Part shown: piece by piece, positions 23,094-34,613 of the stretch
How positions within the stretch are numbered: the stretch's first letter is position 1
Layout of the letters: each line of letters begins with the position of its first letter
Origin: Bacteroidales bacterium
Lineage (GTDB): Bacteria; Bacteroidota; Bacteroidia; Bacteroidales; Paludibacteraceae
Reading direction: 5' to 3'
Assembly: GCA_012519885.1 (NCBI GenBank)
Contig: JAAYPI010000117.1
Coordinates: 1 to 34,613 of the forward strand
DNA: 34,613 nt
Notes under the pieces: generated by a model
The model's input: the letters and a program-made list of their open reading frames with translations, nothing else
Told to the model about the DNA's origin: nothing
Database searches by the model: none
Program-made: the position numbers and the translations under genes

Positions 23094-24590
23094 TTACTTT
23101 TTTTTTGCATACCAATTGCCAAGAATGGGTATAGATGTTAACGGCATATCTCTTTTGATGGCAAATGCTACAAAAATTGCCAATAAGACAGTTTTCAGCA
23201 AATAGTCCAACCAACTATATTCCGTATTAATAAATAATGAAATGACATATAAGCAAATAGCTAATACAGAGTAGATGGCTATTGATTTTAAATCATACTT
23301 TATAGGCATATATTTTTGTCCAAAATAGTATGATACCATCATAATAACAAAATAGCACAAGAAAGCAGCCCATGCCGATCCTGTATAGCTAAAAAGAGGT
23401 ACTAAAACGATATTCCCTACTACAATGATTACTGTTCCTAAAAAAGAGAACCATGCTCCGTAAATGGTTTTATCCGTAAGTTTATACCACAAAGAAAGGT
23501 TGAAAAATATTCCCTGAAAAATGAAGGAGAACAAAACAATAGGAACAACGTTTAACCCTTCCCAATAATTTTGTTGAATGATGTATTTAAAAATGTCAAT
23601 ATATAAAACCATTCCAAGGAAAATTAGCAAGGAAAAAATGATGAAAAACTTCATGGCTAAAGCATATGTTGTCAAACTATTCTTATCTTTCTGTTGAGCA
23701 AAAATAAATGGTTCATACGCAAGCCGAAAAGCCTGAGTAAACATAAGCATCACCAAGGCTATCTTAGATGTTGCTCCATAAATTCCAAGTTCAGCAGCTC
23801 CTTCTACTCCTGTCCTCAGAAATGGAAAAAGAATTTTGTCCAATGTTTGATTCATAATGCCTGCGATACCTAAAAGCAACAATGGAATTGAATAGCGTAA
23901 GATTTTTTTCAGCAATTGCATGTCAAAATCAAATTTTACCGCAAAAACATATGGTAATAAAACTAACGTTTGAATAATTGTAGACAATAAATTTGCAACA
24001 AATACATAACCAACACCATAATGGGGATTATAAAACCAGCTTACTGTCCACGGGGCTTCTTTCAGTAACCAAGGACATACAATCAGAAAAAAAAGATTGA
24101 AGAAAATATTCAATACAATATACAAAAACTTGAGTGCTGCAAATTTTATTGGACGGTTGATGTATCGTAAATAAGCAAACGGTATTGCGGAAAAGGCATC
24201 TAATGCAACAACGATTCCGAGCAACATCCAAACATATTCAGGATGTGTCGGATAGCCAAGAAAATTAGCTATTTGCTGCGAAAAGAATACACAAAATAAT
24301 GCAAATAATAATGATGTACTCCCAACTGAAACTAACGTAGTACTGTACACTTGATCGGCATTTTCTTTGTTTTTGTTGGCAAAACGAAAATATCCAGTTT
24401 CCATACCGTATGTCAAAACAACTAACAACAAAGCTGTCCAGGAATACAAGTTTGTTACTACACCATAATCGGCAGAACTTTCCAGAACATAGGTATAAAG
24501 AGGAACAAGTAACCAATTAAGGAATTTTCCTAAAATGCTACTTACTCCATATATTGCTGTTTCCTTTGCAAGGCTTTTTATATTTGCCAT
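23094..24590 (-). CDS. Wzx-like polysaccharide/oligosaccharide flippase
   Basis: A 498-residue polytopic protein of the MOP exporter superfamily with about 12-14 hydrophobic segments. The opening SLAKETAIYGVSSILGKFLNWLL and the first loop are typical of PF01943/PF13440 polysaccharide biosynthesis proteins that flip lipid-linked repeat units across the inner membrane. The specific glycan is unknown. It is encoded 28 bases after ruvB and likely co-transcribed, an arrangement not explained by function. No glycosyltransferase cluster is adjacent, so it may serve a cell-wide O-antigen, capsule or protein-glycosylation route with the rml genes further along. Confidence 0.85.
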   Translation of the reverse strand: MANIKSLAKETAIYGVSSILGKFLNWLLVPLYTYVLESSADYGVVTNLYSWTALLLVVLTYGMETGYFRFANKNKENADQVYSTTLVSVGSTSLLFALFCVFFSQQIANFLGYPTHPEYVWMLLGIVVALDAFSAIPFAYLRYINRPIKFAALKFLYIVLNIFFNLFFLIVCPWLLKEAPWTVSWFYNPHYGVGYVFVANLLSTIIQTLVLLPYVFAVKFDFDMQLLKKILRYSIPLLLLGIAGIMNQTLDKILFPFLRTGVEGAAELGIYGATSKIALVMLMFTQAFRLAYEPFIFAQQKDKNSLTTYALAMKFFIIFSLLIFLGMVLYIDIFKYIIQQNYWEGLNVVPIVLFSFIFQGIFFNLSLWYKLTDKTIYGAWFSFLGTVIIVVGNIVLVPLFSYTGSAWAAFLCYFVIMMVSYYFGQKYMPIKYDLKSIAIYSVLAICLYVISLFINTEYSWLDYLLKTVLLAIFVAFAIKRDMPLTSIPILGNWYAKKK

Positions 24591-24618
24591 GAATACGATT
24601 ATTCTGATGAATAAAAAC

Positions 24619-25641
24619 CTAAAATAAAGAACCTATATCTGCTTTTCTAATACGACCTAGATGCTCATAGGCCAATTGCGTTACCTCTCTACCACGAGGT
24701 GTGCGTTTCAAAAAACCTTCCTTTATTAGAAACGGCTCGTACACCTCCTCTAGAGTTCCAGCATCTTCGCCCAAAGCTGTCGAAATGGTAGTCAATCCGA
24801 CAGGTCCTCCATTAAATTTATCAATAATAGTAGTCAAAATTTTGTTATCAATCTCATCTAAACCATACTTATCAATATTTAATGCTTCGAGGGCATAACA
24901 AGCAATTTCTCTGTCCATTTTTCCATTCCCTTTTACTTGAGCAAAATCTCTTACTCTACGCAATAAGGCATTAGCAATACGTGGGGTACCTCTACTTCTG
25001 CTAGCTATCTCTACAGCTGCATCTTGAGTGCATGGGGTGTGTAATATAGCTGCCGAACGCTTTATGATATTGATAAGCACATCATTGTCGTAATATTCTA
25101 AATGACAATTGATGCCAAATCGGGCTCTTAACGGACTAGTAAGCAGTCCACTACGAGTAGTTGCTCCTACAAGTGTAAATTTGTTTAAATCTAGTTGTAT
25201 AGAGCGAGCACTTGGACCTTTATCTATCATTATATCAATACGATAATCCTCCATTGCTGAATATAAATATTCTTCTACAATCGGACTCAAACGATGTATT
25301 TCATCTATAAACAACACATCATTCGTTTCCAAACTGGTTAGCAAACCTGCTAAATCACCAGGTTTATCCAATACAGGTCCTGAAGTTATTTTAAACCCAA
25401 CTTGCAACTCATTGGCAATTATAGTTGATAAAGTCGTTTTACCTAATCCAGGAGGTCCATGCAATAATACGTGGTCTAACGATTCTCCACGCATACGAGC
25501 TGCTTGAACAAAAATTTTTAGGTTGTCCACAATGCTTTTTTGTCCACTAAAATCATTAAAACTTAATGGACGTAAGGCAATATCAACATCTTGTTCTTTA
25601 TCGGTTAAAGCTCCTTTTCTTATATCGAAATTATCTTCCAT
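24619..25641 (-). CDS. ruvB: Holliday junction branch-migration helicase RuvB
   Basis: RuvB is the hexameric AAA+ motor that with RuvA drives branch migration in recombination. The 340-residue sequence has the family start [15 protein letters not shown], Walker [10 protein letters not shown], Walker [11 protein letters not shown], sensor 1 [20 protein letters not shown] with the arginine finger region, and the C-terminal winged-helix part ending [13 protein letters not shown]. Length is standard. ruvA is not next to it, as is common in this phylum. gldA ends 25 bases upstream. Confidence 0.97.
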
Positions 25642-25666
25642 CTATGTTTATTTTAGTCTATATCAA

Positions 25667-26560
25667 CTAATTTCGCGTTAATTTTCTAAACAGTTCTTCC
25701 AAATTTTGCTCCTGTAAGTGCAAGGTTACCAAGCCCACCCCTTGTTCTACGGCAAATTGATACAACAAATACCGTATATCTTCATTACATTCAACCACAT
25801 ACGACCGTGCATTAATTGCGTGTATAGCAGTTATCTTATCTATCATGAATAAATGGTCTTTGGATATTGGATTTGCAAATTCCACAACGATGGTCATAGT
25901 ATCATGAATCTTATCTTTTTTGCTATCGGCAACAATTGATCCTTCTCGTATAATAACATATCTATCACACACAGCCTGCACTTCTTGCATAATATGCGTG
26001 CTAAGTATTACTGTTTTATCTTTGCCTACCTCTTTAATAAGTTCACGTATTTCAACTAATTGATTAGGATCAAGACCAGTAGTAGGCTCATCCAAAATAA
26101 GCACTTTGGGATTATGAATCATGGCTTGAGCTAAACCCACTCGTTGACGATACCCTTTTGATAATTGTCCAATTTTTTTTGTATATTCTCGAGTTAACCC
26201 TGTCTTTTCTATTATATCCTCTACTCTCTGTTTACTTTCTTTACCTAATTTATAAAGCTGTGCAATAAACAATAAGTATTCGGCAACATACATATCCAAA
26301 TACAATGGATTATGCTCTGGCAAATATCCAATTATTTTTTGTGCATGTAAAGTATCATTCAACACATCAATTCCATCAACAAATATACTACCACTATCTG
26401 GCTGTACAAAGCCAGTAATAATCTTCATCGCAGTTGACTTCCCTGCTCCATTCGGACCTAGAAAACCAATAATTTCACCACTTTCTACATGAAATGAAAT
26501 ATTTTTCAATACATGCTGGGTACCATAAAACTTAGATAAACTATCAATATACAGACTCAT
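25667..26560 (-). CDS. gldA: Gliding-motility-type ABC transporter ATPase (GldA-like)
   Basis: A 297-residue ABC ATPase: Walker A GPNGAGKSTAMK, Q-loop GYLPEHNPLY, signature LSKGYRQRVGLAQA, Walker B VLILDEPTTGLDP, H-loop STHIMQEV, then a C-terminal regulatory domain. The opening MSLYIDSLSKFYGTQHVLK and length match GldA, annotated as a gliding-motility ATPase. The partners GldF and GldG are not adjacent, so the role in gliding is unproven and it may belong to another exporter. I chose the ATG at 26560; the frame continues ten codons upstream without family similarity. A -7-like box (TAATTTTG, minus strand, 26588-26595) lies upstream. Confidence 0.8.
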   Translation of the reverse strand: MSLYIDSLSKFYGTQHVLKNISFHVESGEIIGFLGPNGAGKSTAMKIITGFVQPDSGSIFVDGIDVLNDTLHAQKIIGYLPEHNPLYLDMYVAEYLLFIAQLYKLGKESKQRVEDIIEKTGLTREYTKKIGQLSKGYRQRVGLAQAMIHNPKVLILDEPTTGLDPNQLVEIRELIKEVGKDKTVILSTHIMQEVQAVCDRYVIIREGSIVADSKKDKIHDTMTIVVEFANPISKDHLFMIDKITAIHAINARSYVVECNEDIRYLLYQFAVEQGVGLVTLHLQEQNLEELFRKLTRN

Positions 26561-26587
26561 GCAGAATAAGGTTCTATAAATTTTGAG

Positions 26588-26595
26588 CAAAATTA
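26588..26595 (-). promoter_or_regulatory. Candidate -7 promoter box for gldA-ruvB-flippase
   Basis: Read on the minus strand this is TAATTTTG, an exact TAnnTTTG match, 27 bases before the gldA ATG. No well-spaced -33 element was found. Confidence 0.35.
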
Positions 26596-26683
26596 AACAT
26601 AAAAAGGGAGTTTATATCATATTTTACTACAAATTTATTTTTTTTATCATTTCAAAATAGACAACAGCTGTAGCTCTTTGACA

Positions 26684-26713
26684 TTGGGATGTAAAAAAAT
26701 ATCTATATCTTTG
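26684..26713 (+). promoter_or_regulatory. Promoter of thiL
   Basis: TTG (26684-26686) followed by 19 bases and TATCTTTG (26706-26713) matches the Bacteroidota -33/-7 pair. The start site would be near 26720, about a dozen bases before the ATG, giving a very short leader. Confidence 0.65.
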
Positions 26714-26732
26714 CAATTCAAGAAAAAAATGT

Positions 26733-27776
26733 ATGGAAACACGAACAACTATTTCAGAATTAGGAGAATTTGGCTTAATTGAGCGATTAGCAAGTACCAT
26801 TTCACTACAACATCCAACCTCTATTAAAGGTATAGGAGATGATGCAGCAGTAATAGAAAATAATGAGGGTAATTCTCAAACACTTATTTCAACCGATTTA
26901 TTATTAGAAGGTATTCATTTTGATTTAACCTATTTTCCTTTAAAACATTTGGGATACAAGGCGGCTATTGTTAACTTTTCGGATATATATGCCATGAATG
27001 GCACTCCTCAACAAATTACTGTTTCTATTGGTGTATCTAACCGTTTCTGTATTGAAGATATTGAAGAATTATATGAGGGGATTAAACTGGCTTGCTCTAC
27101 GTATAAGGTAGACATTATTGGAGGGGACACTTCAGCCTCTCTTACTGGACTCACTATTAGTATTACCTGCATTGGTATAGTCAATACAAAAACTATTGCG
27201 TATCGTAATACAGCAAAAGAGGGTGATTTAATTTGTGTGTCAGGCAATTTGGGTGCAGCCTACATGGGATTGCAATTATTAGAACGTGAAAAAACACTTT
27301 TCCGTCAAACGAATAATGCACAGCCTGATTTTACTGGAAAAGAATATATTTTACAACGACAATTAAAACCCGAAGCCCGTAAAGATATCATCGAATTACT
27401 TGCAAAAGAATCCATTATTCCGACTTCAATGATTGACATATCTGATGGCTTATCGTCTGAAACATTGCATATATGTACCCAAAGTAAAGTTGGATGTCGC
27501 ATATACGAAGACAAAATTCCAATTGATTACCAAACGGCATCAATGGCTAATGAATTCAATATGAATTTGGTAACAGCTGCTTTAAATGGCGGAGAAGATT
27601 ACGAATTATTGTTTACTGTTCCATTATCCATGCACGAAAAAATAGCAACTTTAGAAGGAATTAGCATTATTGGACATACTACAAAAGAATCGTTAGGCTG
27701 TAATTTAATTACACGAGACGGACAAGAATTTCAATTAAAAGCTCAAGGTTGGAATGCTTTACATAAAAATGACTAA
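26733..27776 (+). CDS. thiL: Thiamine-monophosphate kinase
   Basis: ThiL makes the cofactor thiamine diphosphate by ATP-dependent phosphorylation of thiamine monophosphate. The 347-residue protein has the N-terminal ELGEFGLIERL, the metal-binding GIGDDAAVI and STDLLLEGIHFDL, the IVGGDTSAS-like IIGGDTSAS, MIDISDGLSSE and the C-terminal LNGGEDYELLFTV, all diagnostic of the AIR-synthase-like ThiL family. No other thi gene is adjacent and no TPP riboswitch can fit in its short leader. Confidence 0.95.
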   Translation: METRTTISELGEFGLIERLASTISLQHPTSIKGIGDDAAVIENNEGNSQTLISTDLLLEGIHFDLTYFPLKHLGYKAAIVNFSDIYAMNGTPQQITVSIGVSNRFCIEDIEELYEGIKLACSTYKVDIIGGDTSASLTGLTISITCIGIVNTKTIAYRNTAKEGDLICVSGNLGAAYMGLQLLEREKTLFRQTNNAQPDFTGKEYILQRQLKPEARKDIIELLAKESIIPTSMIDISDGLSSETLHICTQSKVGCRIYEDKIPIDYQTASMANEFNMNLVTAALNGGEDYELLFTVPLSMHEKIATLEGISIIGHTTKESLGCNLITRDGQEFQLKAQGWNALHKND

Positions 27777-27784
27777 GTATCTCT

Positions 27785-27814
27785 TTTGTAAATAAAAAAA
27801 AATACATACCTTTG
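27785..27814 (+). promoter_or_regulatory. Promoter of the rplY-pth operon
   Basis: TTTG (27785-27788), an 18-base spacer and TACCTTTG (27807-27814) form a good Bacteroidota promoter just after thiL. It gives a leader of about 90 bases before rplY. Confidence 0.7.
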
Positions 27815-27820
27815 CACCGC

Positions 27821-27910
27821 TTTTCGAAAGAAAGTGTGATGGGAATCAAGTCACTAATCACTTAATATTATAACTGGACTTGAATTTGAGTAACACAACA
27901 AAAAATTAAC
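27821..27910 (+). promoter_or_regulatory. Structured leader of rplY
   Basis: The untranslated leader contains TCAAGTC (27846-27852), complementary to GACTTGA (27877-27883), and further short complementary words (GTGAT and ATCAC). It could be an autoregulatory ribosomal-protein leader; no known class is recognised. Confidence 0.3.
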
Positions 27911-28486
27911 ATGAAAACATTTGAATTATCTGGAGTAACAAGAACAGACTTAGGTAAAAAACCAAGTAAAGCAGTACGTAACGACAACGCAATACCTTGT
28001 GTAATGTACGGAACTGGTAGCAACACTCACTTTACAGTAACCGAAAGCGATGTTCGTAAATTAATTTACACACCCGAAATTTTTGAAGTACACTTAACTG
28101 TAGATGGGAAAAAAAGTGTAGCTGTAATGAAAGACTTACAATTTCACCCTGTTACAGACAAAGTTTTACACATCGACTTTTTAGAAGTTGACAAAAAAAA
28201 ACCAATTGTATTATCTGTGCCTGTAAAAGTTGAAGGCTTGGCAGAAGGTGTAAAAGCAGGGGGTAAACTATCATTGGAATTACGCAAGCTAAAAGTAAAA
28301 GCTCTTTGCAAAGACATTCCAGAAAATTTGGTTGTAAATGTTGAAAAATTAGGTTTAGGAAAAACATTAAAAGCTGGACAGTTGAGCTATCCAAACCTCG
28401 AAATTTTGAACAACAAAGATAACGTAATAGTAGCTGTAAAATTAACAAGAGCTGCAAGAGGATTAGCTGCAAAAGGCGAAAAATAA
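27911..28486 (+). CDS. rplY: Ribosomal protein bL25 (Ctc/TL5 type)
   Basis: A 191-residue two-domain bL25, the 5S rRNA-binding protein of the large subunit. The N-terminal L25 domain (about 1-92) begins FELSGVTRTDLGKKPSKAVR and includes IPCVMYG; the C-terminal TL5 beta domain (about 98-185) contains LSVPVKVEGLAEGVKAGG and the typical PENLVVNVEKLGLG. The long form is usual in Bacteroidota. A short lysine-rich tail follows. It leads an operon with pth, an S4 protein and a DUF4924 gene, and the gap to pth is only six bases. Confidence 0.95.
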   Translation: MKTFELSGVTRTDLGKKPSKAVRNDNAIPCVMYGTGSNTHFTVTESDVRKLIYTPEIFEVHLTVDGKKSVAVMKDLQFHPVTDKVLHIDFLEVDKKKPIVLSVPVKVEGLAEGVKAGGKLSLELRKLKVKALCKDIPENLVVNVEKLGLGKTLKAGQLSYPNLEILNNKDNVIVAVKLTRAARGLAAKGEK

Positions 28487-28492
28487 TAACAT

Positions 28493-29056
28493 ATGAAATA
28501 CTTGATTGTAGGATTGGGTAACATTGGTAGCGAATACCAAGATACTCGCCACAACATAGGATTTACACTATTGGATGCCTTTGCTAAGGCATCCAATGTT
28601 TTTTTTACCGAAAAACGGTACGGGGCTGTGTGTGAATGTAAAATCAAAAACAAAACAATGATTTTACTTAAACCCTCTACTTTTATGAATTTAAGTGGAA
28701 ATGCAGTTCGTTATTGGATGAAAGAAGAAAAAATTCCGATAGAAAATGTACTTATCTTAGTAGATGATTTAGCTTTACCTTTTGGGGTATTGCGACTAAA
28801 ATCGAAAGGAAGCGATGCTGGTCATAACGGATTAAAGAATATTCAAGAAATTTTAGGTACCGATCAATACCCTCGTTTACGATTTGGAATTGGCAACAAC
28901 TACCCCAAAGGTCAACAAATCAACTATGTGCTTGGCAAATGGACGTTAGAAGAAAACACTGCTCTCCCCTCTCGCATACAAATAGCAATTGACATAATAC
29001 AAAGTTTTGTATTGGCAGGTATTCAACATACCATGAATCTGTACAACAACAAATAG
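28493..29056 (+). CDS. pth: Peptidyl-tRNA hydrolase
   Basis: Pth releases tRNA from stalled peptidyl-tRNA by ester hydrolysis. The 187-residue protein has the N-terminal [10 protein letters not shown] with Asn10, the catalytic His20 in [19 protein letters not shown], the DDLALPFG metal-like loop with its conserved aspartate, and [12 protein letters not shown]. All catalytic residues expected of the family are present and length is normal. Codons 27-38 ([12 protein letters not shown]) overlap a perfect terminator-like hairpin with a T8 run, listed separately. The next gene follows after 38 bases. Confidence 0.96.
28570..28606 (+). terminator. Terminator-shaped hairpin inside the pth coding sequence
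   Basis: ATTGGATGCCTT (28570-28581) and AAGGCATCCAAT (28586-28597) form a perfect 12-bp stem with a TGCT loop, followed by G and eight T (28599-28606). This has every feature of an intrinsic terminator, about 84 bases after the rplY stop, yet lies in frame within pth. It may end most rplY transcripts or act as an attenuator relieved by ribosomes translating pth. Confidence 0.6.
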
Positions 29057-29094
29057 TTTCTTTTAGCAAAGTTACTTATAATAAGTAGGATGAT

Positions 29095-29490
29095 ATGATA
29101 AAAGAAGAAGTAAGAATTGACAAATGGTTATGGGCTGTACGTTTATTCAAAACCCGTACACTTGCTGCTGAAGCCTGTAAAAAAGGAAAAATTACCATTG
29201 ATACTGTATCTGTCAAACCATCACGTACTATCCGTGTAAACGATGTAATACAAATAAAAAAGCCCCCTATCACGTATGCTTTTAAGGTATTAGCGGTAAC
29301 AGAAAACAGAATGGGTGCAAAGTTAGTGCCCTCCTTTATGGAAAATGTGACATCCGAAGAACAATATGCTATTTTAGAATTATCAAAGATTTCAGGCTTT
29401 ATCGATAGAGACAAAGGCACTGGACGACCAACAAAAAAAGACAGACGTTCGTTAGAATCTTTCTTAGATACCGATTGGACAGAAGAGTAA
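29095..29490 (+). CDS. S4-domain RNA-binding protein (Hsp15-like)
   Basis: The 131-residue protein has an S4 RNA-binding domain at about 6-66: VRIDKWLWAVRLFKTRTLA, KGKITIDT and VNDVIQIKK, as in Hsp15 (HslR), which rescues free 50S subunits carrying a nascent chain. The C-terminal part is basic and includes RDKGTGRPTKKDRRSLE, also family-like. It fits the translation-quality theme of its neighbours pth and rplY. The call to HslR by name is avoided because the orthology is not sure. The downstream DUF4924 gene starts 14 bases after its stop. Confidence 0.85.
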   Translation: MIKEEVRIDKWLWAVRLFKTRTLAAEACKKGKITIDTVSVKPSRTIRVNDVIQIKKPPITYAFKVLAVTENRMGAKLVPSFMENVTSEEQYAILELSKISGFIDRDKGTGRPTKKDRRSLESFLDTDWTEE

Positions 29491-29504
29491 AAAAAAGAAA
29501 ACGT

Positions 29505-30035
29505 ATGATTATTGCCCGTCAAAAAAGAAAAGAAAATATTGCTGAATACATTTTGTATATGTGGCATATTGAAGATATTATCAGAGCATACAAGTTAGAT
29601 ATTGAAGCAATACACACACATATCATAATGCATTTTAGCCTTGATGAAGCCACAAGAAAAGAAATGAAAGAATGGTACGAAAGTCTAATAGAAATGATGA
29701 ATAAGGAACAAGTGATGCATACAGGACACTTGCAAATCAACCAGAGTTCCGTTCGTTTGCTTTGTGATTTTCATGTAGAATTGCTCGAAAATGAAGACGA
29801 AAAACAGTATCATTCATTATATCATCAAACGCTACCATTAATCGAAGAATTCAGACATAAAAATGCACTAAGCGATGTCCCTTCAATCGAAGTCTGCTTG
29901 CAATTTATGTATGGCATTTGGTTGCTCAAGATTCAGAAAAAAGAGATTTCTACCGAAACCAACCAAGCAGTAGTACAAATTGGTAAACTTTTAGCATTTT
30001 TGTCTAAGAAATTTAAAAACAATGAGGAGAATTAA
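29505..30035 (+). CDS. DUF4924 family protein
   Basis: A 176-residue, mostly helical cytoplasmic protein of unknown function. From the ATG at 29505 it begins MIIARQKRKENIAEYILYMW, the family opening; an in-frame ATG at 29475 would overlap the S4 gene and add ten basic residues not expected in the family, so I reject it. No catalytic motif, signal peptide or membrane segment is visible. It is the last gene of the rplY operon and may take part in translation or RNA metabolism by association only. Confidence 0.8.
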   Translation: MIIARQKRKENIAEYILYMWHIEDIIRAYKLDIEAIHTHIIMHFSLDEATRKEMKEWYESLIEMMNKEQVMHTGHLQINQSSVRLLCDFHVELLENEDEKQYHSLYHQTLPLIEEFRHKNALSDVPSIEVCLQFMYGIWLLKIQKKEISTETNQAVVQIGKLLAFLSKKFKNNEEN

Positions 30036-30046
30036 CAAAATACTTG

Positions 30047-30054
30047 TAACTTTG
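30047..30054 (+). promoter_or_regulatory. Candidate -7 box of the rml operon
   Basis: TAACTTTG is an exact TAnnTTTG match 41 bases before rmlA. The -33 element is not evident. Confidence 0.5.
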
Positions 30055-30095
30055 GTGCGGTAAATCTATTTACACTAATAAATAAAAAAATCCAT

Positions 30096-30965
30096 ATGAA
30101 AGGAATTGTACTTGCTGGAGGCTCTGGAACACGTTTGTATCCAATTACAAAAAGTATTTCAAAACAAATTATTCCGGTTTATGACAAACCGATGATATAT
30201 TATCCAATCTCTGTTTTAATGCTTGCAGGCATTAGAGAAATTCTAATTATTTCTACTCCTCAAGACATCCATTTATACGAAAACTTATTAGGTGATGGTA
30301 CTAGTTTAGGTGTAAAATTTACCTATGCTATTCAGCCCTCACCAGATGGGCTAGCACAAGCGTTTATTATTGGGGACGAATTTATTGGCAACGACTCAGT
30401 ATGTATGGTATTGGGAGATAACATATTTTATGGATATAATTTTTCAAAACAACTAAAAGAAGCTGCAACACTCGAAGATGGAGCTGTAGTATTCGGGTAT
30501 TATGTAAATGACCCCGAACGCTATGGAGTAGCTGAGTTTGACACCAATGGCAAAGTTTTAAGTTTAGAAGAAAAACCAGCGATACCAAAATCTAATTATG
30601 CCGTTACTGGCTTGTATTTTTATAGCAACGACGTGATTCAAAAAGCAAAAGGATTAAAACCATCGGCACGTGGCGAACTGGAAATTACCGACTTAAACAA
30701 ACTTTACTTGCAAGAAGAACGCCTAAAAGTACAACTACTTGGACGGGGCATGGCATGGCTTGATACAGGCACACACGACAGCTTGTTAGAAGCTTCTAAT
30801 TTTATTGCAACTATTGAAAACAGACAAGGCTTAAAGGTTGCTTGTTTGGAAGAAATTGCATTCAATAATGGCTTTATCAACAAAGATCAGTTATTAAAAT
30901 TGGCAGAGCCTCTTAAAAAGAACTATTACGGTCAGTATTTATTGAAAATTGTATCTCAAAAATAA
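30096..30965 (+). CDS. rmlA: Glucose-1-phosphate thymidylyltransferase
   Basis: RmlA (RfbA) couples glucose-1-phosphate with dTTP to make dTDP-glucose, the first step to dTDP-L-rhamnose. The 289-residue nucleotidyltransferase has the loop [13 protein letters not shown] near residues 6-18 with [16 protein letters not shown], the sugar-site [14 protein letters not shown]-equivalent [18 protein letters not shown] and [14 protein letters not shown]. Length is standard. First gene of an rmlA-rmlC-rmlD run. Confidence 0.96.
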
Positions 30966-30994
30966 CATCCTTTTTTACTAGCAAAAACGTACAC

Positions 30995-31549
30995 ATGGAA
31001 ATTATTGAAACGAAAATCCCAGGTTTATATATTGTTCAACCCAAAGTATTTGGCGATCATAGAGGTTATTTTTGCGAAACATATAACGAAAAAACATTTC
31101 ACTCTTTGGGCATCACAAACAAATTTTGTCAAGACAATTTATCTAAATCATCATACGGAGTTATTCGCGGTTTACATTTTCAGCTACACCCACACAGTCA
31201 AGCAAAACTAGTTTCGGCAGTAGTGGGCACGGTATATGATGTAGCTGTAGATATACGTGTTGGTTCGCCTACATATGGCGAGTGGGTAGGTATCGAATTA
31301 AGCGAAGAAAATAAAACACAATTTCTTATTCCACAAGGATTTGCACATGGATTTTCAGTTCTTAGCGAAACGGCTATTTTCTCTTACAAATGTGACAATC
31401 TATATACACCATCAGCAGAAGGAGGTATTTTATATAACGATCCAACCTTACAAATAGACTGGAAAGTTCCTTTTGAAAAACAACTTGTTTCAGAAAAAGA
31501 CACAAAACACCCTACATTGAAGGATGTGAAAACTAATTTTGTATTTTAA
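30995..31549 (+). CDS. rmlC: dTDP-4-dehydrorhamnose 3,5-epimerase
   Basis: RmlC epimerises dTDP-4-keto-6-deoxyglucose at C3 and C5. The 184-residue cupin has the diagnostic DHRGYFCETY, GVIRGLHFQ with catalytic His61, YDVAVDIRVGSPTYG, the QGFAHGF strand and Tyr131 in FSYKCDN. It follows rmlA by 29 bases. Confidence 0.96.
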   Translation: MEIIETKIPGLYIVQPKVFGDHRGYFCETYNEKTFHSLGITNKFCQDNLSKSSYGVIRGLHFQLHPHSQAKLVSAVVGTVYDVAVDIRVGSPTYGEWVGIELSEENKTQFLIPQGFAHGFSVLSETAIFSYKCDNLYTPSAEGGILYNDPTLQIDWKVPFEKQLVSEKDTKHPTLKDVKTNFVF

Positions 31550-31566
31550 TTATAAAATTGAATTGT

Positions 31567-32448
31567 ATGACAAACGTATTAATAACCGGAGCTTATGGTC
31601 AGCTAGGAAGCGAACTTAAAAAACTTGCACCCCAATATACACAGTTTACCTATTTTTTTACGGATGTTGATACGCTTGATATATGTAATAAACAAGCAAT
31701 TTTACAGTTTTGCATAGATAATTCTATTCATTTCATTTTAAATTGTGCCGCATACACTGCTGTAGATAAAGCGGAAGAAGAAGAGCAACACTCTTTGTGT
31801 TATGCTATCAATGCTGAAGCTGTAAAAAACTTAGGAGAAGTGGCTTCGCAAATAGGAGCCAATATAATCCATATTTCTACTGATTATGTATTTGATGGCA
31901 AAGCATATCTCCCATACACTGAAGATATAACGACTAATCCTCAATCATTGTATGGAAAATCAAAACTATTAGGAGAACAATGGCTAATGAAATCATGTGC
32001 TCATGCACTTATTATTCGTACCTCATGGCTATATTCTACTTTTGGAAACAATTTTGTAAAAACAATGATAAAGTTAGGTACAGAACGTACGGAACTCAAG
32101 GTGATTTTTGATCAAATTGGCACCCCTACCTATGCTGCTGATTTAGCAAATACAATGTTAACCATAGTAGCCAAATCAACAGAAAAAGCTACCAATTACG
32201 TGCCTGGCATATATCATTTCTCTAACGAAGGCGTGTGTAGTTGGTACGACTTCACAATTGCTATACATGCTTTATATGGCATTTCTACCTGTAATGTGTT
32301 ACCTATTGAAAGTAAAGAATATCCAACCAAAGCTCCCCGTCCGCATTATAGTGTCCTTAACAAACAGAAAATAAAGACCACTTTTGACATTACTATTCCT
32401 CATTGGCAAACATCGTTAGCCAATTGTATAGGTAAATTAAAGACGTAA
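31567..32448 (+). CDS. rmlD: dTDP-4-dehydrorhamnose reductase
   Basis: RmlD reduces the RmlC product to dTDP-L-rhamnose with NAD(P)H. The roughly 293-residue extended SDR has the nucleotide loop ITGAYGQLGSEL, NCAAYTAVDKAE, the STDYVFDG motif and the active-site YGKSKLLGE. I take ATG 31567; the frame also opens at TTG 31558, three codons earlier. The operon lacks rmlB (dTDP-glucose 4,6-dehydratase), which must be elsewhere for the pathway to be complete. Confidence 0.95.
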   Translation: MTNVLITGAYGQLGSELKKLAPQYTQFTYFFTDVDTLDICNKQAILQFCIDNSIHFILNCAAYTAVDKAEEEEQHSLCYAINAEAVKNLGEVASQIGANIIHISTDYVFDGKAYLPYTEDITTNPQSLYGKSKLLGEQWLMKSCAHALIIRTSWLYSTFGNNFVKTMIKLGTERTELKVIFDQIGTPTYAADLANTMLTIVAKSTEKATNYVPGIYHFSNEGVCSWYDFTIAIHALYGISTCNVLPIESKEYPTKAPRPHYSVLNKQKIKTTFDITIPHWQTSLANCIGKLKT

Positions 32449-32520
32449 TAATCGCGATACCTTGCTCAAAGTAAGCACGTTTTACCTTGGCAAATAAAAT
32501 AAAAAAAGAATGTTAAATAA

Positions 32521-32551
32521 TTTGTTTAGTTCTTTTTTTACAGTAACTTTG
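32521..32551 (+). promoter_or_regulatory. Promoter of the ATP synthase operon
   Basis: TTTG (32521-32524), a 19-base spacer and TAACTTTG (32544-32551) match both elements of the Bacteroidota promoter. The start site would be near 32558, giving a leader of about 50 bases. Confidence 0.75.
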
Positions 32552-32571
32552 GGCGTTCTTTTTACAATTAA

Positions 32572-34125
<1,554 letters not shown>

Positions 34126-34131
34126 ATACAT

Positions 34132-34380
34132 ATGATAGTAGAAATTTATGCACCACATAAAACACTTTTTTCTGGCAATGCATTAGCAATATCTTTACCT
34201 GGAACAATGGGTAAGTTTGCGATACTTGATAACCATGCTCCACTGGTTTCTGTACTAGGAAAAGGAAATATCTATCTTACAAAAAAGAATGAAGAAAATA
34301 TTTCTTTTAGTATTGATAGCGGTTTTGTAGAGGTAAATAATAATATAGTAAAAGTTTGTGTAGAAATTAATAAAAAATAA
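34132..34380 (+). CDS. atpC: F-type ATP synthase epsilon subunit, short form
   Basis: The 82-residue protein corresponds to the N-terminal beta-sandwich of epsilon (VEIYAPHKTLFSGNALAISL, GKFAILDNHAPLVS, SIDSGFVEVNNNIVKV). The C-terminal helical hairpin that inhibits ATP hydrolysis in E. coli is absent; this short form is usual in Bacteroidota. It joins the central stalk with gamma. It starts six bases after atpD. Confidence 0.92.
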   Translation: MIVEIYAPHKTLFSGNALAISLPGTMGKFAILDNHAPLVSVLGKGNIYLTKKNEENISFSIDSGFVEVNNNIVKVCVEINKK

Positions 34381-34387
34381 ATATAGC

Positions 34388-34613
34388 ATGAGAAAATATT
34401 ACCAAATCATTGTTACGAGTGTAATTGTATCTCAACTAATAATTTGGTTGGTATTTACCTTTTTTTTACCTGAATATTGGGATGCCAATTTTTTTCTTAT
34501 CCCTATTTATTTTTTAGCAATTGAGATAGTTTTTTGTAAATTATTGGAACGGTTTTATGTAGCCAAACAAAAATTAGATTGGTATGTTATTTTTAAGTTA
34601 GGAAAGTTATTAT
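34388..34613 (+). CDS. Small membrane protein of the ATP synthase operon, cut by the window edge
   Basis: Starting at ATG 34388 and running to the end of the window, this partial frame (75 codons seen) begins MRKYYQIIVTSVIVSQLIIW. Two hydrophobic segments (about residues 7-28 and 36-53) are visible. In Bacteroidales a small membrane protein lies between atpC and atpB and may play the role of AtpI, an assembly factor for the c ring; that equation is by position only. Spacing of seven bases after atpC supports operon membership. Confidence 0.6.
   Translation, partial: MRKYYQIIVTSVIVSQLIIWLVFTFFLPEYWDANFFLIPIYFLAIEIVFCKLLERFYVAKQKLDWYVIFKLGKLL

Follow-up and report, generated by a model that had tools for sequence, protein, structure and literature searches.

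Two elements of Escherichia coli, the rplL-rpoB attenuator and the rpsU-dnaG terminator, are intergenic intrinsic terminators that let a minority of polymerases through. Internal terminators that set operon stoichiometry are a known kind of device also in the accessible text of a study on Clostridia (PMC9045158), where an example with a 24-bp gap showed no drop in transcript. The behavior of terminators close to or inside translated sequence is described for an E. coli construct (PMC4824070), and the accessible portion of that paper reports that terminators were repressed near a stop codon and reached full efficiency beyond about 30 bp, that translation took only about 10% off the efficiency of a terminator 30 bp inside an ORF, and that one late in an ORF fell to 40% efficiency. 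In the same construct the early in-ORF terminator halved the expression of the upstream gene, an effect ascribed to non-stop mRNA decay. For Bacteroides thetaiotaomicron, according to the accessible text of PMC10994844, terminators are annotated in Theta-Base, and the survey of PMC8040213, in its accessible part, was run on intergenic DNA and set apart candidates that match proteins. Here we describe a hairpin and T-run located within the codons of pth, immediately downstream of the ribosomal protein gene rplY.

The rplY-pth locus and its hairpin

The window, that is, the whole stretch of 34,613 nucleotides that was analysed, holds the gene row thiL, rplY (bL25), pth and an S4-domain gene, and only 6 nt separate the rplY stop from the pth start. 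The features of immediate relevance are the following.

27911..28486, plus strand: rplY, ribosomal protein bL25/Ctc, 191 aa (NF004132, score over cut-off)
28493..29056, plus strand: pth, peptidyl-tRNA hydrolase, 187 aa (TIGR00447/PF01195)
28569..28598, plus strand: putative terminator hairpin of 13 pairs (12 Watson-Crick and an outer U.G) with tetraloop UGCU, in pth codons 26-36; supported by covariation
28599..28606, plus strand: T8 run, the putative terminator U-tract, in codons V36-F37-F38 (GTT TTT TTT)

The original prediction had described a perfect 12-bp stem, a tight loop and a T8 run in the pth codons, which the letters of the window confirm. The 5' arm ATTGGATGCCTT (28570-28581) is followed by the loop TGCT (28582-28585), the 3' arm AAGGCATCCAAT (28586-28597), G at 28598 and T8 at 28599-28606, and an outer T-G pair (28569/28598) extends the stem to 13 pairs. 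The hairpin lies 82 nt beyond the rplY stop and 76 nt into pth, and the whole element, hairpin and T-run, falls within the first 114 nt of pth, in codons 26-38. The distance of 84 bases given earlier holds as a count to the first base of the 12-bp stem, which is the 84th after the stop ending at 28486; similarly, the placement within pth stands, while the start at codon 27 does not, the 12-bp stem beginning at the third base of codon 26.

As expected of an intrinsic terminator, the hairpin is stable and short-looped (13 pairs, 4-nt loop) with the U-tract directly 3' of the stem, T8 adjoining the outer pair. The minimum free energy of 28560-28615 is -19.3 kcal/mol (z -5.7), as good as which none of 200 dinucleotide shuffles came, and on folding 28470-28620 the hairpin is present in the minimum-energy and centroid structures alike. 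A simple scan of 24000-34613 returned six terminator-like sites against 6.3 in shuffles, with the pth hairpin as the longest; thus it is the length of this hairpin that is unusual rather than its presence. In a stricter scan (at least 12 pairs and at least 7 T in 8) the pth site was the sole match on both strands of the window, and shuffled DNA gave any match in 1 of 120 strands (60 shuffles, both strands). A second long terminator-like hairpin, with 12 pairs if G-T is allowed, lies on the minus strand at 32943-32973.

Rfam 15 gave no family at gathering score over the window. SpF11_sRNA scored 26.5 bits where 54 are required (E 0.18 and 0.039), and on inspection of the alignment was dismissed as a terminator-shaped chance match. 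Viral contigs yielded no rplY relatives.

Exchange with intergenic terminators

Relatives were sampled at several depths: 300 genomes of the family (pth match in 274), the best 80 of 578 loci of relatives, 119 genomes from the order, of which 113 matched, and 118 from the phylum, of which 117 did. Stretches with upstream DNA numbered 120. Of these, 100 came from the order sample, from 111 matching genomes besides G000 and G018, the 11 omitted being mostly the least similar; 16 of the 28 same-class genomes were fetched, plus one as L114, and 4 came from the remaining phylum genomes. The set L001-L114 includes one locus of the family sample (L113) and the class locus L114. A strict finder was run on 206 distinct loci, and pairs were counted in 188 of these, leaving out 16 in which no rplY was found and 2 with a gap between rplY and pth above 320 nt.

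The stem is present in 50 of the 100 sampled order loci (one or two per family), and its presence follows the length of the gap. Among the 91 order loci with rplY at most 320 nt upstream, a stem by a 10-pair threshold was found in 45 of 49 with gaps of at most 50 nt vs 5 of 42 with longer ones (Fisher p 2e-15). Hairpins with T-tails in the gap, hereafter gap terminators, begin a median of 23 nt beyond the rplY stop (43 loci). These were sought by a loose finder in gaps of at least 20 nt only, which left 33 of the 50 order loci with the stem without a searchable gap, so that part of the mutual exclusion of stem and gap terminator is built in. Since short gaps also leave no room for a second terminator, the fair contrast is that of long gaps. 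With gaps above 50 nt, over all samples, 43 of 48 stemless loci had a gap terminator, compared with 4 of 20 stem loci; the loose finder also gives matches in 30 of 91 order regions when they are read in reverse complement. The same contrast amounted to 32/37 vs 2/5 in the order and 3/3 vs 2/15 in L001-L114, and the class and phylum loci without the stem had a gap hairpin in 8 of 8. The strict finder, applied to all non-negative gap lengths, found both terminators in 2 of 135 in-ORF loci. Two near relatives combine the in-ORF stem with a T-tailed gap hairpin, L085 (gap 177 nt, -21.2 kcal/mol) and L087 (gap 77 nt, -13.5), and are possibly lineages in the middle of a switch.

Shared ancestry was considered through independent pairs across starred branches of a tree built without the hairpin's own columns. 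With the strict finder, a first test fell short of significance at a median p of 0.125, on a tree in which 27 of 130 inner branches were starred. A second attempt employed the pair count, the loose finder, a longer tree search and 123 rather than 133 rows, with L133 and L134 hand-scored as stem and the gap-terminator trait equal to 0 by construction for gaps under 20 nt; on those terms stem and gap terminator were opposite in 5-7 of 8 pairs and never the same (median p 0.016), and stem and short gap were concordant in 4-6 of 9 (median p 0.031).

The stem was absent from all 15 loci where tblastn and HMM searches found no L25 in about 1 kb upstream; L081 has the stem with no L25 found, in a stretch that begins just 99 nt before pth.

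Several loci depart from the general pattern. Gaps above 50 nt occur in 20 of 133 stem loci, and lack of room is thus not the sole reason for the in-ORF position. Among long-gap loci, 3 of the order and 13 of L001-L114 carry the stem without a terminator in the gap, and five of the order show neither. With short gaps, four loci of the order fall below the 10-pair threshold for the stem: L133, which keeps 9 of 12 pairs in a bulged hairpin with T-run at the same place (-23.3 kcal/mol), L204 with a weaker hairpin, and L178 and L212 with none. L134 passes the pair count with a weaker, mismatched stem. Outside the order, the class locus L215 (gap 5) has the stem, seven other class loci and L114 have gaps above 50 nt with gap terminators, and the four phylum-level loci comprise one with a gap terminator and three that lack the stem at gaps of 2-23 nt.

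Promoter elements, candidate leader and proposed mechanism

Upstream of rplY two further elements were recognized.

27807..27814, plus strand: TACCTTTG, a putative Bacteroidota -7-type promoter element (TANNTTTG) upstream of rplY; the only TANNTTTG in 27601-28700
27834-27896, plus strand: candidate leader for L25, GTGT-GATGG...GAGTA-ACAC around an apical stem that varies; resembles CGATGG / GAGAGTA of 5S rRNA

We take TANNTTTG to be the consensus of the Bacteroidota -7-type promoter element. On sequence evidence only, 125 of 130 stem loci have it in the 220 nt before rplY vs 16.9 expected from base shuffles, and it precedes rplY in 20 of 39 gap-terminator loci (3.9 expected). An own pth promoter element follows the gap terminator in 13 of 43 loci vs 3.1 expected, and was seen in 1 of the 39 stem loci tested (1.5 expected), these being 16 with long gaps without gap terminator and 23 with gaps of 21-50 nt. 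Gap terminators of the form AAAGGTATAAAG...CTTTATACCTTT are shared by some Bacteroidales, namely L143, L154, L175, L185, L189, L190, L192, L205 and L211. Their 3' arm resembles a TANNTTT promoter element, and gap terminator and pth promoter might overlap there.

In the window the leader reads GTGT-GATGGGAA-[variable stem]-TTT-GAGTA-ACAC and ends 14 nt before the rplY start. Its motif, defined as GATGG and GAGTA enclosed by a minimum of 4 pairs, is found in 99 of 182 distinct upstream regions vs 1 of 3640 base shuffles (87/129 stem loci, 10/41 gap-terminator loci and 2/12 others), and in an alignment of 52 of the 85 leaders the apical stem varies in length and sequence. Rfam 15 has no match at this leader. 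The 5S rRNA pieces of the genome are truncated at contig ends and score 34.6 bits where the cut-off is 38; they contain CGATGG and GAGAGTA, which we take to be loop E, the L25 site. The rplY leader looks like a candidate autoregulatory leader for L25.

On these observations, we consider it probable that the element is the intrinsic terminator of rplY, relocated into pth, and that it sets the ratio of the two products largely indifferent to pth translation. This is the best supported reading because the hairpin replaces the intergenic rplY terminator, and it is through this exchange that the high rplY to pth ratio suggested in the original prediction gains its support. Transcription would start at the promoter before rplY, and past rplY the polymerase would make the hairpin and U-run, where most polymerases would stop, giving a rplY mRNA that ends near pth codon 38. 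The minority reading through would supply pth. The pth start codon precedes the hairpin, so that a transcript can contain the complete pth ORF only by passing through the hairpin, from whichever promoter it began; pth is in this sense reached by read-through, and the obligatory crossing would fix a high L25:Pth ratio. The terminated RNA would carry a pth start without a stop, and by analogy to the construct of PMC4824070, as far as its accessible text goes, the rplY-pth design would share the cost of non-stop mRNA. The genome has tmRNA.

A different view of the same hairpin, raised in outline in the original prediction and in our judgement unlikely though the most serious competitor, is a translation-sensing attenuator: ribosomes reinitiating at pth behind the polymerase would block the hairpin, pth would be completed only if its start is well translated, and a shortage of Pth or slow translation would alter pth supply. 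The gap of at most 30 nt in 108 of 133 stem loci suits termination-reinitiation, E. coli ribosomes do repress nearby terminators, down to the 40% efficiency late in the ORF (accessible part of PMC4824070), and L25 levels could enter the same traffic of ribosomes through the rplY leader. However, the stem persists at gaps of up to 294 nt, and no competing antiterminator appears in the minimum-energy or centroid structures of 28470-28620 in the window sequence. Moreover, the hairpin sits in the first 114 nt, and PMC4824070 argues, in its accessible portion, that a ribosome would probably not catch up within the first 100 bp; by extrapolation from the loss of only about 10% at 30 bp in that construct, melting by ribosomes at 76 nt may be weak.

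A broader variant, which we put forward tentatively and at equally low likelihood, is a checkpoint in which ribosomes coming off rplY set the passage, so that L25 supply, acting through its 5S-like leader, and the quality of translation would jointly meter Pth, with the needs of the RNA having fixed Pth residues across many Bacteroidales families. If true, the terminated RNA, with pth start and no stop, would feed ribosome rescue, and the metered enzyme would be the one that clears failed translation.

Selection on the T-run

Returning to the proposed rplY terminator, selection on the T-run was assessed from third codon positions. A first statistic was circular, as the finder demanded a perfect stem and T, and was redone with loci chosen by stem alone. 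In 134 such loci the third positions of codons 36-38 carry T at 2.85 of 3 vs 1.41 expected; the corresponding figures for 71 loci without the stem are 1.35 vs 1.12. Judged by these comparisons, the T-run is under its own selection.

This bears on the notion that the hairpin stabilises or processes the 3' end of the rplY mRNA and causes little real termination. Thirteen pairs close to the end of a ribosomal-protein mRNA would slow 3' exonucleases. A stabiliser requires no U-tract, however, and the selection on the T-run, together with the swap with T-tailed gap hairpins, indicates termination, leaving this explanation improbable.

Selection on pairing and the strand involved

The stem itself is strongly maintained. 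For a first count the pth match was mapped in 111 of 112 loci, giving 86 distinct sequences, of which the 84 without insertion were counted: 80 have all 12 pairs, one has 11 and three, all Parabacteroides, have 4-5, the Parabacteroides arrangement being a gap terminator in place of the stem. A covariation alignment was assembled from 67 of 68 candidates, diverse rows picked for the stem; L154 was dropped (9 pairs, gap terminator) and L133, with 9 pairs, and L134 were kept on purpose. Over 15 pairs, 94.9% of the cells in these 67 rows are paired, with both-side changes at 11 of the 15. None of 500 shuffles scored as high on any of five covariation measures, sliding the partner by 1-3 columns reduced pairing to 34-50%, and RNAalifold recovers the stem unaided on the same alignment. 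The pattern that would have spoken against the element, loss of the stem through synonymous changes in close relatives, was looked for with the opposite outcome, stem and T-run being kept and changes being compensatory.

The protein code alone does not explain this. Synonymous resampling by each gene's codon usage predicted 7.7 of 12 pairs vs 11.8 observed (135 loci); in 116 of the 135 at most 10 of 1000 resamples were as good, the window itself giving 10. Little excess was found in 70 loci without the hairpin, with 5.2 pairs observed vs 5.0 resampled. Pairing is also kept where the protein changes, as by Ala29Thr with Ala33Val in L112 and L157, and by Asn35Gly (L138), Asn35Lys (L159) and Asn35Asp (L191). 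Congruent with the covariation, these comparisons lead us to conclude that the pth hairpin is under selection.

The molecule on which selection acts can be read from two double-wobble pairs, codons 28/33 and 29/32, in 134 loci. U.G was seen 6 and 39 times, respectively, vs 26 and 50 under independence, and C.A 0 and 2 times vs 20 and 14, or in total 45 vs 76 for U.G and 2 vs 34.5 for C.A. U.G is spared and C.A nearly absent, which points to RNA of the plus strand, as a DNA palindrome or an RNA of the minus strand would not do so. Furthermore, TTGGAYGC..GCRTCCAA is present in 36 of 99 order genomes, every time within the pth match, while a reversed control pattern was found in 0 of the 99. The core is consequently not a repeat dispersed over the genome, nor a common site for a protein.

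Two remaining explanations are thereby most unlikely. If the core were a dispersed repeat, or a palindrome in the DNA bound by a protein for segregation or repression, its good conservation would fit, but hardly its confinement to pth or the far greater rarity of C.A than of U.G. A chance by-product of a conserved protein segment, for which the pairs predicted from the peptide with random synonymous codons and the 10 in 1000 resamples reaching 12 in the window could be cited, meets the near-complete pairing over 135 loci, the covariation in 67 rows, the paired changes that alter the protein and the variability of residues 33-35 in Pth without the hairpin, and has next to no likelihood.

Possible consequences for the Pth protein

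The effect on the protein was approached by dividing the 100 order loci by the strict finder into 49 with and 51 without the hairpin and comparing residue diversity over columns 4-183. The largest drops in diversity with the hairpin are at columns 34, 33, 35, 29 and 27 (entropy differences 3.4, 2.7, 2.4, 1.8 and 1.8, against a mean of 0.20 and sd 0.56 over all columns), a comparison that is descriptive and partly circular because the loci were grouped by the hairpin itself. In loci without it, Asp28 (45/51) and Ala29 (31/51) are still common while residues 33-35 vary widely, and the two best solved Pth chains have other residues in the region of 33-35. The LDAFAKASN segment, taken earlier as conserved, is so where the hairpin is present but, at residues 33-35, not in order relatives without it.

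Thus, it seems that the RNA dictates Pth residues 33-35 (Ala33-Ser34-Asn35), as far as the sequences can tell. Rather than of a coincidence of protein and RNA constraints, one might better speak of an RNA that seemingly dictates part of the protein. A reasonable history would be that the 5' arm used a pre-existing Leu-Asp-Ala, and that the 3' arm later fixed Ala-Ser-Asn.

Comparison with known systems

Aggregated, the data give the element, its covariation, the preference for the plus strand, the T-run, the swap with gap terminators and the absence without upstream rplY, from which we infer the actual termination, how efficient it is and the product ratio that would result. In a full-text search of open-licence literature we found no description of the rplY-pth terminator, nor, in the accessible texts, of any covarying in-ORF terminator of an upstream gene; novelty is thus not proven. 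The locus would represent a clear case of a regulatory RNA of one gene placed inside the protein code of the next, apparently fixing residues of an essential enzyme, and surveys of intergenic DNA, such as that of PMC8040213 by its accessible part, would tend to overlook such elements. It further suggests that these bacteria do not simply co-express rplY and pth, and the working of terminators early in a translated ORF could be tested here in a natural setting.

The closest relatives of the arrangement are rplL-rpoB and rpsU-dnaG, in which, likewise, a ribosomal-protein gene precedes one that is needed less and read-through is partial. Their terminators lie between the genes, as is typical of ratio-setting operon terminators, whereas that of rplY-pth occupies codons 26-38 of pth, the second gene, whose product it seems to shape. 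The Clostridia ABC-transporter operons likewise have internal terminators and a first gene exceeding the next, but these terminators, as the accessible text of PMC9045158 has it, are intergenic and were sought at gaps above 50 bp, unlike the in-ORF one of rplY-pth. ORF-internal 3' ends and RNAs of E. coli similarly place 3' ends within coding sequence; the accessible portion of PMC7815308 concerns Rho, 5' UTR regulation and ORF-internal sRNAs, and holds no covarying intrinsic terminator of an upstream gene. Finally, the construct of PMC4824070, as described in its accessible text, has the same geometry, well beyond the stop codon and early in the next ORF, yet is a plasmid construct with lambda tR2 30 bp into the ORF, whereas rplY-pth is a natural operon with the hairpin 76 nt into the downstream gene.
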